From: Pedobacter indicus
GTDB lineage: Bacteria; Bacteroidota; Bacteroidia; Sphingobacteriales; Sphingobacteriaceae
NCBI RefSeq assembly: GCF_003449035.1
Contig: NZ_QRGB01000001.1
Location: 124,001 to 188,000 of the forward strand
Direction of reading: 5' to 3'
Length of the DNA: 64,000 nucleotides
Shown: positions 51,294 to 57,272 of the stretch, piece after piece
Layout of the letters: each line of letters opens with the position of its first letter
Position numbering within the stretch: the stretch's first letter is position 1
Translations under genes and position numbers: made by a program
Notes under the pieces: model-generated
Databases searched by the model: none
What the model saw: only the letters and a program-made list of their open reading frames with translations
Told to the model about the DNA's origin: nothing

Positions 51294-52757
51294 ATGAGTA
51301 AAACGGACGATATATTAAAGAATGTAGTATCACATGCCAAAGAATATGGCTTTGTATTTCCTTCGAGTGAAATTTATGATGGGTTAAGCGCAGTTTACGA
51401 TTATGGCCAACTTGGAAGTGAATTAAAGAACAACATTAAAACCTATTGGTGGAAATCAATGGTTCAACTTCATGAAAACATCGTTGGGATCGATTCAGCA
51501 ATCTTTATGCATCCAAAAATATGGAAAGCCTCCGGTCACGTTGATGGTTTTAACGACCCAATGATCGATAATAAAGATTCAAAGAAACGCTACCGGGCCG
51601 ATCAGTTGATTGAAGATAAGATTACACGGTATGAAAAGGATGGCAAACAAGAAAAGGCTGATTTGCTTCAAACTAGCTTGGATGAGGCGATCAAAAATGA
51701 TGACCTAGTCAGTTTAAAAGAAATCATCATTGAACATGGAATCGTGTGCCCCGTTTCTGGCACGAAAAACTGGACTGATGTACGTCAGTTTAACCTGATG
51801 TTCTCCACAAAAATGGGAGCGATGGCAGACGAATCAGAAATAGTTTACCTTCGCCCGGAAACCGCTCAAGGTATTTTCGTCAACTTCCTAAACGTGCAAA
51901 AAAGTGGCCGAATGAAAGTTCCATTTGGGATAGCACAGATTGGAAAAGCCTTTAGAAATGAAGTGATCGCCCGCCAATTTATAATGAGAATGAGAGAGTT
52001 CGAACAAATGGAATTGCAGTTCTTTGTTCGTCCAGGCACCGAAATGGAATGGTATGAGAAATGGAAAGAATCCAGACTAAAATGGCACCTCGCTTTAGGA
52101 GCTGACCCGTCGAAGTACCGGTACCACGATCATGTCAAGCCTGCGCATTATGCGAATGCAGCTGTCGATATCGAATACGAGTTTCCATTTGGATTCAAGG
52201 AAGTGGAAGGCATTCACTCCAGAACCGATTTTGACCTCAAGCAACATCAAGAGTTCTCGGGAAAGAAAATGCAGTTTTTCGATCCAGAGATAAATCAAAA
52301 TTACATCCCATATGTAATCGAGACTTCAATCGGTCTGGACCGGATGTTTCTAACGGCACTTTGCAACGCTTATGAAGAACAAGATCTCAGCACAACAGAA
52401 AAGAAAGATAGTCGTACTGTTTTGAGCTTTCATCCGGCACTCGCACCAGTTAAGGCGGCGGTGCTTCCGTTGACAAAAAAAGATGGACTTCCTGAAAAGG
52501 CTCGAAAGATCCTCACTGGGTTGAAGTTTGACTTCAATATGCACTACGATGAGAAAGACTCGATCGGGAAACGTTATCGTCGCCAAGACGCAATAGGTAC
52601 TCCGATTTGTATTACGGTAGACCATCAAACATTGGAAGATGATCAAGTGACTATACGTCATCGTGACTCAATGGAGCAAGAACGCGTGTCAATCAGTGAA
52701 CTGAATTCTATTCTAACAAAACTAACAGGCTGGAGCACCTTATTACAAAGCACTTAG
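51294..52757 (+). CDS. glyS: Glycyl-tRNA synthetase (alpha2 type)
   Basis: Charges tRNA-Gly with glycine. This is the single-chain, dimeric class II form (487 residues) rather than the alpha/beta form of E. coli. Motifs are visible: YLRPETAQGIFVNFLNV, motif 2 FRNEVIARQFIMRMREFEQMELQFF (about 220-245), motif 3 ETSIGLDRMFLTAL (about 343-356) and the C-terminal anticodon-binding domain ending KLTGWSTLLQST. It is followed by a long hairpin that overlaps the next gene's start. Confidence 0.96.
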   Translation: MSKTDDILKNVVSHAKEYGFVFPSSEIYDGLSAVYDYGQLGSELKNNIKTYWWKSMVQLHENIVGIDSAIFMHPKIWKASGHVDGFNDPMIDNKDSKKRYRADQLIEDKITRYEKDGKQEKADLLQTSLDEAIKNDDLVSLKEIIIEHGIVCPVSGTKNWTDVRQFNLMFSTKMGAMADESEIVYLRPETAQGIFVNFLNVQKSGRMKVPFGIAQIGKAFRNEVIARQFIMRMREFEQMELQFFVRPGTEMEWYEKWKESRLKWHLALGADPSKYRYHDHVKPAHYANAAVDIEYEFPFGFKEVEGIHSRTDFDLKQHQEFSGKKMQFFDPEINQNYIPYVIETSIGLDRMFLTALCNAYEEQDLSTTEKKDSRTVLSFHPALAPVKAAVLPLTKKDGLPEKARKILTGLKFDFNMHYDEKDSIGKRYRRQDAIGTPICITVDHQTLEDDQVTIRHRDSMEQERVSISELNSILTKLTGWSTLLQST

Positions 52758-52819
52758 TTCAAAGACATAGACACAGTTTAAGCAACTTTGGTCAAACTCA
52801 GCCCCTTGACCACCAAACA

Positions 52820-52869
52820 TTCATCAAAAAAATCTGTTAAATATCAACAACAGATTTTTTTGATGAATA
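52820..52869 (+). terminator. Long inverted repeat between glyS and the amidohydrolase gene, containing the latter's start codon
   Basis: Left arm ATTCATC-A7-TCTGTT and right arm AACAGA-T7-GATGAAT pair over about 20 nt around a 10-nt loop (AAATATCAAC). It looks like a terminator for glyS, with weak A/T content but long arms, and at the same time buries the ATG at 52863 of the next gene in its right arm. Exact ends may be off by one because of the homopolymer runs. Confidence 0.7.
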
Positions 52870-53645
52870 CAAACTACGAAATCTACAAAGAAGATTCTCC
52901 TTTTATTTCTCTCGCCTTACACGATGGACACTTCATTCCACCTGATGTTCTGAGGCATATCAAGCTCAAAGAGCACGAACGCTTCCGAGAGGAAGATCCC
53001 TATACAGCTTATATGGCCAACCTTCCGGTCAATAAGGTTTTTGTTAATACATCCCGATTTTATGTCGATCTCAATCGTCTGGAAAATCAGGCTATTTATA
53101 AAAGACCAGAAGATGCTTGGGGGTTAGAAGTATGGAAGAATGAATTCCCAATCGAGCTGGAAGAAAAACAGATGGCTTATTATCACGAGTTTTATTCAGA
53201 AATAGAAAAATTCATAAAGGACATTATTCACAAACATGGCTATTTCATCATTCTGGATATTCATTCATATAACCATCGCCGAGAAAATGCATTCACCTTA
53301 GCTAACGAAAAGGAAAACCCTGAAATCAATATCGGATCAGAATATAATCATCCCCGATGGCGACCTTTGATCAGTAACTACGCGACGTTCCTGTCAAAAT
53401 GTATAATCAATAACCATCATCCCGATGTAAGGGAAAATATCAAATTTAAAGGCGGCGGGTTCTCTCAATGGGTGAATCAGCATTACTCAGAGCAGGGCTG
53501 TGTAATATCAATTGAATTTAAAAAGACATTTATGGATGAATGGACCGGACGGGGAGACATCGACCATATCCGGGATATACGGCAGGCTCTTCGGGATTCT
53601 ATATCATTTCTAACAAAGAATGCACAGGTCGCCCTTAATTCCTGA
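52863..53645 (+). CDS. N-formylglutamate amidohydrolase-like protein
   Basis: A 260-residue protein of the N-formylglutamate amidohydrolase family (PF05013). The conserved blocks are LALHDGHFIPPDVL with likely metal-binding His and Asp, NTSRFYVDLNRLEN, LDIHSYNHRRENAF (about 120-133) and IEFKKTFMDEWTG near 218. In histidine degradation this family releases glutamate from N-formylglutamate, but no hut genes are nearby and here it sits in an uncharacterised cassette, so the natural substrate is uncertain. Start at the ATG 52863; the frame is open about 25 codons upstream through the hairpin but has no family similarity there. Gap to the next gene 2 nt. Confidence 0.85.
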   Translation: MNTNYEIYKEDSPFISLALHDGHFIPPDVLRHIKLKEHERFREEDPYTAYMANLPVNKVFVNTSRFYVDLNRLENQAIYKRPEDAWGLEVWKNEFPIELEEKQMAYYHEFYSEIEKFIKDIIHKHGYFIILDIHSYNHRRENAFTLANEKENPEINIGSEYNHPRWRPLISNYATFLSKCIINNHHPDVRENIKFKGGGFSQWVNQHYSEQGCVISIEFKKTFMDEWTGRGDIDHIRDIRQALRDSISFLTKNAQVALNS

Positions 53646-53647
53646 CT

Positions 53648-55507
53648 ATGACAAACAATGCCGAACATAAAACAATAGATAAGAAGACTGTCAATCGCAT
53701 CATCAGTAAAATAAAAAGTGACGAGCCAATCCGGGTAACACTACCAGCGAAGGGACTGTTTAACATGGAAAGACCGGTACCTTTTATGGTGGTTTACAGA
53801 ATTCCACCAAGTGGCAAAGACGGATTTACATCGCGTTTAGGAAAAACTGAATCGTCTTACCTTCACGCACAAGACAGCAGCCAAACAACTGAAATAATCG
53901 AAAGCGTAGCCAATGAATTAGCTGATCGGTTTAAGGGCTTCCTACTTTTAGAAGTTTGGTTAGCGGAAAAAGACAACCCTTCACCGTTCACGATACACGT
54001 TGGTCAGAAAAGTGGTCTCGAAGTTGCCGAAAAACTAAAGACCGAGCTGTCCAAAATAAACATCCTCGGCAACTTCCTAAAAGCCGAAATCAATAAAGGT
54101 AAAAACGTAGCCACCCCTGATTATTACAAACCACTCATAGATGCTAAAGAAGCTAACAAATCTTCCATAACCCTTATAGGTTTAGAAATCGCACCTGTAT
54201 ACATGAATGAAGCAACAGGCAGGGCTTATCCTTTATTTCTGCGTGACCTCCGAGCAAAATTCAGCAAAGCCATTCGAAAGGGATTCTTTGAGTTTGTGAG
54301 AATGCATACGTCCTATAATGCATCTAACTTTCAAATGTTGGGAACAACCAGTCTGAGAAAAAATGTCTTTGAAATTGATAAAGAATTAGCCCACTATAGC
54401 AATTTGTTTGACTTTCTTCTTCTTGTGACGCCACTCAATGTGGATGAAGCTTGGAAAGATTTCAAAAAGTCTAACTTCTTAAAAGAACCGGTCTTTCACT
54501 ACAGACCGATGCCGATCGATCCGGAGCTAATTAAAAGAAAAATATACAATCTGCCCATAGAAGAAATCTCAGACCCGACCTTAGCCTTTCTTTTTCGTGA
54601 TAAAAGAAAAGAGATCGATCGAATGCTATACATGATGGCAGAAAGAGAAAAGCCTGACTTTATGCTGACTAGCCTACAACTATTTGGGCCAATCGATGAA
54701 AAACTGCTTGAAACAGCTAAAGCTATCCTGATTGCAATTGAAATTCCAGAGACAACCAAGAAAAAGAAAATGATCTCTGCAAAAGAGTTTGCCCTAATGG
54801 CCGAAAAGGAATTAGAGTGGTTAAAACTCCAGGATCCTTCAATATCGACTGCGGTTCGTATTCGTGATGATATTGAAGGTATCTTAGTCAATAGAGGCAC
54901 CTTGAACATTAACAAAAACTTCCGAGTGTCAGAAGAACGTGCTTTTGCACTTCTGCAACATGAAATAGGAACCCACGTTGTTACCTATTATAACGGGAAA
55001 GCACAACCTCTCCAACTTTTCTATATCGGCGTCCCTGGATATGAAGAGCTCCAAGAAGGATTGGCCGTATTCGCCGAATACATGGCTGATGGCCTAACGC
55101 TGAGCCGACTCAGAACCATCGCGGCCCGAGTGGTTGCAGTCCATCAAATGGTTTCTGGAAATTCATTTATCGATACTTTTTTCTTACTCGTCGATAAATA
55201 CCAGTTTAGTGAAAGCGCAGCTTTTTCAATTGCGATGCGCGTATATCGCGGCGGTGGTTTAACAAAAGATGCCGTTTATCTCAAAGGTTTACTCAATATC
55301 ATCGAGTATATCAAAAAAGGAAAAAGCTTGGAACCACTTTTAATCGGCAAAATAAGACAAGACTATATAACTGTTATACAGGAACTTGTACACCGGGAAA
55401 TCTTAACCAAGATTCCTATAAAACCACGCTACTTAGATGAAAAATATTTAGTCAAATACGAAAACATTCGTTCGGGTGGAAACGTTTTCAATATGATTCA
55501 CAAGTAA
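53648..55507 (+). CDS. QEGLA-motif metallopeptidase (MATCAP-like, PF08014/TIGR02421 family)
   Basis: A 619-residue protein. The zinc-site motif H438-E439-IGT-H443 (HEIGTH, an HExxxH type) is followed by EELQEGLAVFAEY with QEGLA at 469-473, whose Glu470 is the probable third ligand. Relatives include the flavohemoglobin-expression-modulating QEGLA proteins of bacteria and the eukaryotic MATCAP tyrosine carboxypeptidases, which remove the C-terminal Tyr of alpha-tubulin. The first 300 residues have no recognisable domain. It starts 2 nt after the amidohydrolase gene and 45 nt before the ATP-grasp gene. Substrate unknown. Confidence 0.85.
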   Translation: MTNNAEHKTIDKKTVNRIISKIKSDEPIRVTLPAKGLFNMERPVPFMVVYRIPPSGKDGFTSRLGKTESSYLHAQDSSQTTEIIESVANELADRFKGFLLLEVWLAEKDNPSPFTIHVGQKSGLEVAEKLKTELSKINILGNFLKAEINKGKNVATPDYYKPLIDAKEANKSSITLIGLEIAPVYMNEATGRAYPLFLRDLRAKFSKAIRKGFFEFVRMHTSYNASNFQMLGTTSLRKNVFEIDKELAHYSNLFDFLLLVTPLNVDEAWKDFKKSNFLKEPVFHYRPMPIDPELIKRKIYNLPIEEISDPTLAFLFRDKRKEIDRMLYMMAEREKPDFMLTSLQLFGPIDEKLLETAKAILIAIEIPETTKKKKMISAKEFALMAEKELEWLKLQDPSISTAVRIRDDIEGILVNRGTLNINKNFRVSEERAFALLQHEIGTHVVTYYNGKAQPLQLFYIGVPGYEELQEGLAVFAEYMADGLTLSRLRTIAARVVAVHQMVSGNSFIDTFFLLVDKYQFSESAAFSIAMRVYRGGGLTKDAVYLKGLLNIIEYIKKGKSLEPLLIGKIRQDYITVIQELVHREILTKIPIKPRYLDEKYLVKYENIRSGGNVFNMIHK

Positions 55508-55552
55508 ATATTATAATTTAACAAATAAAAAAACACCTAACCTTATAAAAAT

Positions 55553-56539
55553 ATGAAAATAGGATTTGTTGTCAATCAAACACCTAAAGAAGTTCCTGCT
55601 TACACCACCACCGGATTGGCTTTGCATGCCAGTCGAATGGGTCATGAAATCTATTACATTGGTGTAGGAGATTTGGTATATCTCCAAGATGAGCAAATGG
55701 GAGCCCATGCGCGGAAAGGCCCGGATAAACAATTCCGAACGAACGAAACCTTTTTAAATGCCGTTAAAAAGGTCAAAAAAGAACTCATAACCGCCAAAGA
55801 ATTAGACGTTCTTGTATTAAGGAATGACCCGTCGATCGATTTCGAGCGCCGCCCCTGGGCGCAAAATTCAGGAATCGTATTTGGTCAACTGGCACAAAGA
55901 CACGGCGTCGTTGTTTTAAACGACCCCGATACCTTAGCAAGTGCATTAAACAAAATGTATTTCCAGTATTTTCCGAAGAGCGTCCGACCCGAGACGATTA
56001 TCACTCGAAACATAGATGATATCAAGGCTTTCTATCGACATTTCGACAAGCATATTATCCTGAAACCTTTGCAGGGATCAGGTGGCAAGAACGTTTTTAT
56101 GATTAAAGACGATATAAAGAATCTAAATCAAATTGTTGAAGCAATTTCACGCGATGGCTTTGTTGTCGCTCAAGAATACCTACCCGACGCTAAAAATGGC
56201 GACATACGCCTTTTCTTGTTGGACGGCCAACCTATTGTTGTCGATGGCAAAACCGCTGCCCTACATCGTACGCAAGCAAAAAACGATATACGGAGCAATA
56301 TCCACCAAGGAGGTACGGCGAAAATTGCCAAACTGTCCAAACGTTGCTATGAAATCGTAGAAGAAGTGGCTCCCAAATTAATTAAAGACGGCATGTTCCT
56401 CACTGGTCTCGATATCGTTGGCGACAAACTGATGGAGGTTAACGTATTTAGTCCGGGAGGCTTGGGGAATGCCGGAAAACTTAATAAAGTAGACTTTTTT
56501 GAGCCTGTCATCAAGGCCATAGAAAGAAAGGTATTCTAA
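55553..56539 (+). CDS. ATP-grasp ligase, glutathione synthetase-like (GshB type)
   Basis: A 328-residue ATP-grasp enzyme. The pre-ATP-grasp part begins MKIGFVVNQTPKEVPAYTTTG; the ATP-grasp part has IILKPLQGSGGKNVFMI (P-loop-like, about 166-182), VAQEYLP, GDIRLFLLDGQP and the metal-binding LMEVNVFSPGGLGN near the C-terminus. GshB homologues ligate a carboxylate to an amine. gshA is not adjacent and the setting with an amidohydrolase and a QEGLA peptidase suggests another substrate than glutathione. The gene is 45 nt downstream of the QEGLA gene. Confidence 0.85.
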   Translation: MKIGFVVNQTPKEVPAYTTTGLALHASRMGHEIYYIGVGDLVYLQDEQMGAHARKGPDKQFRTNETFLNAVKKVKKELITAKELDVLVLRNDPSIDFERRPWAQNSGIVFGQLAQRHGVVVLNDPDTLASALNKMYFQYFPKSVRPETIITRNIDDIKAFYRHFDKHIILKPLQGSGGKNVFMIKDDIKNLNQIVEAISRDGFVVAQEYLPDAKNGDIRLFLLDGQPIVVDGKTAALHRTQAKNDIRSNIHQGGTAKIAKLSKRCYEIVEEVAPKLIKDGMFLTGLDIVGDKLMEVNVFSPGGLGNAGKLNKVDFFEPVIKAIERKVF

Positions 56540-56549
56540 ATCATAAACA

Positions 56550-57272
56550 CTAGCTAAAAACCTCTTCTAGAATATAATGAGAGTTTATGTTCCCAAAATT
56601 ATCAACATGAAGTGCATAATACTCCATCAAATGGTTCAGAAGAACGCGACGATCATTTAATGAAATATGCACTCTCTTCAGATCTTGAAACGAACTCAAC
56701 AGAATAGCCAACCACTGTTGAGTTTGTTTTTCATCCAGATAGAGGTTGTGATAGGGAGCGCTTGAACAAAAGACACCCTCCTTTAAATCAAAAAACGGTA
56801 ATTTCTCCTGAGAAACAGATGGATAGAAGCCCATGAACTTACTGAGTCGCAATAAAAAATAGAGATGGTAATTAGACGGGGTTTCTGACGACTGATCCAA
56901 CCATATAATCGCATGGTATATGTATTCAAACAGCGGCTCATCAGGACTTTGCTGCTTTAAACATTTGGATAATACTTCATTCAGAAAAATAACAAGCGAT
57001 CGTTTCTTATCATCATAGGGAATACGCAGAAAAGTTGGCGATTGCCTCGCGTCTGAAATTCGCTGTATCCCCCCTGTACTCTTATGATAGACAACCATGT
57101 CCAACAAATGGAGCGGCTGCAATATATTAATATGTATCTTTGCCTTGCTTCTCTTTACCCCGTGAATAATATAAGATTGTAACCCAAATTTTTCAGTGAA
57201 TATCTGGCAAATCACACTCGTTTCCCGGTGATTAATTGTCTTCAACACGATTCCTCTGGTCTTATGCAACAT
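56550..57272 (-). CDS. recO: DNA repair protein RecO
   Basis: Anneals complementary strands and loads RecA in the RecFOR gap-repair pathway. The 240-residue protein has the N-terminal OB fold (MLHKTRGIVLKTINHRETSVICQIFTEKFG) and a helical C-terminal domain. The zinc-finger cysteines of many RecO proteins are reduced: I see a single Cys in EGVFCSSAPYHN, as in other Bacteroidota. It is convergent with the ATP-grasp gene and separated by 10 nt. Confidence 0.92.
   Translation of the reverse strand: MLHKTRGIVLKTINHRETSVICQIFTEKFGLQSYIIHGVKRSKAKIHINILQPLHLLDMVVYHKSTGGIQRISDARQSPTFLRIPYDDKKRSLVIFLNEVLSKCLKQQSPDEPLFEYIYHAIIWLDQSSETPSNYHLYFLLRLSKFMGFYPSVSQEKLPFFDLKEGVFCSSAPYHNLYLDEKQTQQWLAILLSSFQDLKRVHISLNDRRVLLNHLMEYYALHVDNFGNINSHYILEEVFS

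Follow-up and report, generated by a model that had tools for sequence, protein, structure and literature searches.

A linked FGase-fold amidohydrolase, MATCAP-like metallopeptidase and GshB-like ATP-grasp ligase in Pedobacter indicus and other bacteria

Three adjacent genes that form one unit

The stretch of DNA analyzed here (hereafter the window) comprises 64,000 nucleotides of the Pedobacter indicus genome and contains, at 52863–56539, three consecutive genes on the + strand. The first (52863–53645, 260 aa) encodes a zinc amidohydrolase of the N-formylglutamate amidohydrolase (FGase) fold (PF05013, E 1.7e-24), the second (53648–55507, 619 aa) a metallopeptidase of the QEGLA/MATCAP family (PF08014, E 7e-90), and the third (55553–56539, 328 aa) a GshB-like ATP-grasp ligase of subfamily NF009110 (412.1 bits against a cut-off of 408). 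The gaps are 2 nt between FGase and peptidase and 45 nt between peptidase and ligase. On genes, families and gaps, open reading frame (ORF) calls and Pfam searches agree with a preliminary description that had been drawn up from the letters of the window. The start of the FGase gene at ATG is backed by the family alignment; a TTG at 52788 would give 285 aa. The genome (3.47 Mb, 99.99% complete) carries a single copy of the peptidase and a single copy of this FGase.

The preliminary description had proposed that the three genes are one cassette, and the distribution of the families bears this out. In an even sampling of the phylum (296 genomes), the PF08014 peptidase is present in 16 and the ligase subfamily, at 396 bits or more, in 15, the next-best genome scoring 215 bits. 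All 15 ligase genomes also have the peptidase, each time with the ligase in its cluster. The lone peptidase genome outside this set (G237) has a divergent short QEGLA protein and lacks the ligase subfamily. The probability of such an overlap by chance is ~1e-24 by a hypergeometric hand calculation, which treats the genomes as independent, so that kinship makes it overstate the case. The FGase lies within the cluster in 13 of the 16 peptidase genomes, in one of them as a fusion; in two more (G108 and G323), an AstE/AspA-type deacylase (PF24827) adjoins the ligase instead.

An alignment-based scan of GTDB genomes extended the picture beyond the phylum, yielding at least 574 relatives among 590 candidates, where a single-sequence scan gave none. 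Phylum labels were read from the best 80 relatives, which are biased to the type of this locus and many of which are metagenome bins; these include Planctomycetota, Campylobacterales, Kiritimatiellae, Calditrichaeota, Verrucomicrobia and Poribacteria, as well as Acidobacteria, Gemmatimonadota, Gamma- and Deltaproteobacteria and Actinomycetes. Rhizobial megaplasmids also carry the cassette, including pSymB of Sinorhizobium meliloti. Among the de-duplicated loci, ~80 of 93 hold the complete trio. FGase-QEGLA-ligase is the usual gene order, and an estimated gap of 50 nt or less separates QEGLA from the ligase in 66 of 76. Because the genes flanking the cassette vary between lineages, the trio itself is the unit. 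Furthermore, pairwise distances of the three proteins correlate over 72 loci (rho 0.69–0.76; none of 500 permutations was as high), a correlation to which shared species history contributes. The trio is thus a real unit, with linkage far beyond chance. Several loci had at first been scored as FGase-less (four from Pontibacter, L100 and L104); in these the FGase is present and had been masked by antisense ORFs.

Families, folds and active sites

Judged by its pair of Pfam domains, GSH-S_N and GSH-S_ATP (PF02955, E 1.5e-51), the ligase belongs to the glutathione-synthetase branch of the ATP-grasp enzymes. It lies just above the NCBIfam cut-off of its subfamily (NF009110/PRK12458) and below both GshB equivalog cut-offs (TIGR01380, 204.9 vs 299.05 bits; NF003573, 219.1 vs 272 bits). 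It is closer to GshB than to RimK (219 vs 83 bits), and scores 43 bits against a cut-off of 331 for the RpsF glutamate ligase NF007764. It also matches the structure 1GSA (E 8.3e-41). The catalytic roles of K125, K160, R210, R225, R233, D273, E281 and N283 in Escherichia coli GshB are well established; equivalents of all eight are found in the ligase and are near-invariant in 99 ligases. Among Pfam matches to E 0.001, no tubulin tyrosine ligase (TTL) family appeared, the GSH-S families being matched instead. At the family level the ligase is neither TTL nor RimK, and the analogy to TTL drawn in the preliminary description is loose.

Although the ligase shares its domain pair and catalytic residues with GshB, it differs in falling under the equivalog cut-offs, in its host and in its strict linkage to QEGLA. 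The host genome has no match to PF04107 or PF04262, that is, no GshA, and it carries BshC, a bacillithiol enzyme. Canonical glutathione synthesis is therefore rejected on the lack of GshA and the two equivalog scores, and the label 'glutathione synthase' is unfit in this host. The sole other GSH-S_ATP match in the genome is a RimK-family ligase adjoining a RimB-type (PF05618) protease. These two genes (L047:698–2085), a known type of glutamylation pair, stand apart from the cassette, and no RimB-like retropepsin-type protease was found within the cassette.

The FGase passes the Pfam cut-off for PF05013 (87.7 vs 28.9 bits). Its AlphaFold 2 model has a predicted local distance difference test (pLDDT) score of 95.1 and best matches 2q7s (Z 24.9) and 2odf (Z 23.0), followed by poly-gamma-glutamate hydrolase and M14 carboxypeptidases (Z ~11–12). 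H20, D132, H134 and E218 are, with others, invariant among 83 sequences. Sequence profiles did not reach 2q7s, so that the active-site residues of the FGase are named by conservation and fold. Despite the fold shared with HutG-type enzymes, the NCBIfam score of 22.7 against the HutG equivalog cut-off of 278.75 bits rules out a HutG N-formylglutamate deformylase, and the cassette context is not one of histidine degradation.

The peptidase passes the Pfam cut-off for PF08014 (302 vs 27 bits) and is slightly under that of the NCBIfam QEGLA family TIGR02421 (331.2 vs 338.65 bits). Its closest named relatives among the matches listed belong to Sphingobacteriaceae, for example Olivibacter (64%) and Parapedobacter (~60%). 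In the AlphaFold model (pLDDT 87.6), residues 257–619 superpose on human MATCAP (7z6s) with Z 24.8 over 293 residues, at 3.1 Å and 19% identity; the next-best structure entry has Z 17.2. The structural comparison that the preliminary description had suggested thus comes out in its favor. Indeed, the family profile also finds human MATCAP (E 5.6e-14), with the HEIGTH, EGLA and KD..YL.G stretches in common. HEIGTH (54959–54976, + strand, residues 438–443) is the metal-binding and catalytic HExxxH motif, assigned by conservation and by its presence in human MATCAP. The QEGLA motif (55052–55066, + strand), likewise assigned by conservation, contains E470, the expected third metal ligand; in tubulin metallocarboxypeptidases (TMCPs) the glutamate of the corresponding EEG motif is the putative third ligand (PMC10499314). 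H438, E439, H443, E470, R531, K540, D541 and Y544 are invariant across 98 proteins. From their conserved active sites, all three cassette proteins look like working enzymes, and family and fold matches agree with the earlier proposal that a carboxypeptidase-type enzyme is paired here with an ATP-grasp ligase.

A further domain had been missed in the preliminary description. This long-type peptidase has ~230 residues ahead of its MATCAP domain (53648–54343, + strand, approximately residues 1–232), with no convincing Pfam family match. In the model, residues 33–220 match the N-formylglutamate amidohydrolase 2q7s (Z 13.2, 175 residues, 3.1 Å), and a profile comparison with the cassette FGase in hhalign gives E 1.6e-7 over 178 columns. 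Both invariant FGase histidines are absent. The N-terminal third of the peptidase is thus a second FGase domain that has lost its histidines. The simplest history would be an FGase-MATCAP fusion whose FGase half was then inactivated beside an active stand-alone FGase; the inactive domain probably serves as a docking site for the active FGase or gives the substrate site its shape. FGase-MATCAP fusion proteins of 662–667 aa occur in two distant lineages, Bacteroidota (L037) and Photobacterium (L131), in both with the ligase gene directly upstream at a few-base overlap. An apparent 914-aa QEGLA-ligase fusion in L044 was an artefact of overlapping frames.

Variant clusters, neighboring genes and expression

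Cluster composition varies with lineage. In clusters of flavobacterial type (f26), the FGase is separate and the QEGLA protein is short (~390 aa); a sodium:dicarboxylate symporter gene lies upstream in those that were scanned. In some Planctomycetota, the genes form arrays such as QEGLA-ligase-ligase-QEGLA-ligase, with three ligases in a row or repeated QEGLA-ligase pairs (L093:7920–11152, L095:5965–12977 and L124:4073–11111). In Altibacter, the bacillithiol-synthesis gene bshC is convergent with the ligase and abuts it (L118:8865–10460); L116 has, in the same position, a 544-aa gene whose product has a similar start. A short solo QEGLA in Pseudoalteromonas (L133:4707–5987) lies between betaine and arginine-succinyltransferase genes, with no ligase or FGase beside it and, like that of L033, is possibly a separate branch of the family.

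A second type of FGase/ligase operon was also seen. At L136:720–4851, genes for a C39-like peptidase, an RLAN-RimK ATP-grasp enzyme, GCS2 and an FGase stand in one row, and in roughly twelve of the sampled genomes an FGase is encoded near a ~490-aa ATP-grasp enzyme. The L136-type operon resembles the cassette in joining ATP-grasp and GCS2 ligases to an FGase with a peptidase, but the ligases, the peptidase and the FGase subfamily are others, and there is no MATCAP.

The cassettes have 1282 short ORFs around them, counted up to 900 bp away. Among the matches listed (60/70 locus pairs), similarity was found between near relatives, with no short-ORF family across phyla of the kind expected for the precursor of a graspetide-like ribosomally synthesized and post-translationally modified peptide (RiPP).

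In P. indicus, the cassette is flanked by a glycyl-tRNA synthetase-like gene (51294–52757) on one side and by recO (56550–57272, − strand) on the other. A 20-bp inverted repeat at 52820–52867 overlaps the ATG of the FGase gene, and the surrounding 128 nt fold at −29.9 kcal/mol; none was seen upstream of the FGase in loci L013 and L085. The repeat may serve as a terminator for the tRNA-synthetase gene ahead of it or may regulate the cassette. Terminator and promoter scans gave no information on cassette regulation.

How the genes respond in Photobacterium damselae provides a hint of joint expression. In published RNA data, at low salinity, a 'glutathione synthase GshB' (A0J47_RS17020) rises 38-fold and a 'QEGLA' protein (A0J47_RS17025) 27-fold; the report places the two in separate functional categories, and QEGLA appears in it once, in the expression table (PMC10308900). 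By their consecutive locus tags, the two genes would fit the ligase and the fused FGase-QEGLA protein of Photobacterium sp. DA100. The data suggest co-regulation of ligase and QEGLA, and a link to osmotic conditions.

A possible make-and-break module

A GshB-type ligase attaches an amino acid, by its amino group, to a carboxylate that it has activated, and carboxypeptidases take such residues off. N-acyl-Glu/Asp amides are split by FGase and AstE/AspA enzymes, which can exchange for one another in the cluster. With this in mind, we tentatively favor, at somewhat less than an even chance, a self-contained cytosolic module that makes and breaks one type of amide bond, in which the amino acid is most likely an acidic one of the Glu/Asp type. 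First, the GshB-like ligase would use ATP to activate the carboxylate of an acceptor X and join it to an amino acid through the amino group of the latter, with X-aa as the product. Second, the MATCAP/QEGLA metallo-carboxypeptidase would take the C-terminal residue off again. Third, the FGase-fold enzyme, or AstE/AspA in some lineages, would cleave the remaining acyl-Glu/Asp amide, so that the amino acid is recovered. The acceptor is more likely a small peptide than a protein C-terminus. An acidic amino acid is proposed because of the FGase/AstE-AspA exchange, the dicarboxylate symporter and the removal of glutamate by TMCPs (PMC10499314). The strict linkage over many phyla, the FGase-peptidase fusions, the near-invariant active sites, the fold matches, the joint low-salt induction and the lack of GshA in the host also speak for such a module.

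Several points weigh against this module. Three FGase-less loci have no AstE nearby. A rhodanese in two clusters (some flavobacterial) and the tandem ligases of Planctomycetota hint that, instead of a simple cycle, there may be a product made in several steps and perhaps containing sulfur. That the amino acid is acidic is provisional, being suggested by the habits of the enzyme families.

The same rhodanese and tandem ligases, together with the GshB-branch ligase and the bshC beside it in L118, would suit a one-way pathway to a small peptide that resembles glutathione and perhaps contains a thiol. One or more ligases would build the peptide, and FGase/AstE would strip an N-acyl group and QEGLA a C-terminal residue as maturation. 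However, most cassettes have a single ligase and lack other biosynthetic genes, a pathway with two hydrolases per ligase would be unusual, and the flanking genes are not conserved; we consider this route rather unlikely.

More doubtful is a reversible C-terminal tagging of a cellular protein in the style of RimK-RimB and RpsF, whereby the ligase would attach the tag, QEGLA would take it off and the FGase would dispose of what is released. In its favor, fold and sequence both mark the peptidase as a genuine MATCAP homologue, MATCAP/TMCPs work on protein tails (PMC10499314), and RimK-RimB acting on RpsF, in which an ATP-grasp enzyme ligates amino acids and a neighboring protease reverses this, is the precedent and the nearest proven bacterial parallel in logic (PMC11957791). 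Nevertheless, the cassette ligase is of another branch, GshB-type and neither TTL nor RimK, and the protease is of another fold, RimB being a retropepsin. In addition, the host already has a RimB-RimK-type pair, the patchy distribution (16/296 genomes) means that a target cannot depend on the cassette in most species, and the cassette encodes no candidate target protein. Of the tubulin-like reversible tag raised in the preliminary description, the MATCAP-like peptidase beside a ligase thus stands; a small acidic peptide or metabolite fits at least as well, given the FGase/AstE swap, the symporter, the rhodanese and the tandem ligases. Tyrosine, which eukaryotic relatives do remove, is not to be assumed as the tag, since the C-terminal residues that human and Tetrahymena TMCPs take off include glutamate among others (PMC10499314). 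None of the outcomes that the preliminary description had named as fatal to its proposal was encountered, and the three families do co-occur across genomes and phyla, as its neighborhood search was to reveal.

Finally, the two zinc hydrolases could scavenge or degrade acidic peptides that the cell has taken up or stored, with a separate or storage role for the ligase. This would agree with the symporter in some clusters and with a mobile, patchy distribution that includes megaplasmids, but it is the least probable account, the ligase being linked as strictly as the peptidase and its active site equally conserved.

In the open-access literature, searched under the bacterial family names, DUF1704 and COG3930, no study of the gene set was found, and no paper on the S. 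meliloti cassette genes under guessed locus tags. A 2009 amidoligase survey by Iyer and colleagues reportedly discusses ATP-grasp/FGase neighborhoods and may mention part of the set. The make-and-break module would pair an ATP-grasp ligase with a peptidase able to reverse its action. We found no description of this combination, of which the ATP-grasp/FGase part may have been noted already.

The human proteins MATCAP/TMCP1 and TMCP2 (KIAA0895L/KIAA0895) share with the bacterial peptidase PF08014, the fold, HExxxH, EGLA and KD..YL.G, whereas the bacterial protein is ~19% identical to human MATCAP, has an extra degenerate FGase-like domain and shares its operon with the genes of a ligase and an FGase. 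To our knowledge, bacteria of this kind have no tubulin. The human tubulin carboxypeptidases hence gain a bacterial context. That the cassette is a widespread bacterial system which reversibly attaches a C-terminal amino acid to a protein or a peptide, with MATCAP chemistry arising there before its role on tubulin, seems to us improbable; if true, the peptidase family with which animals act on tubulin would be part of it. The bacterial name of the QEGLA family ('flavohemoglobin expression-modulating') is uninformative, and annotations call the ligase a glutathione synthase even in a host without GshA. The strict linkage and the third hydrolase make of three poorly annotated families one testable system, present in the tractable S. 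meliloti.

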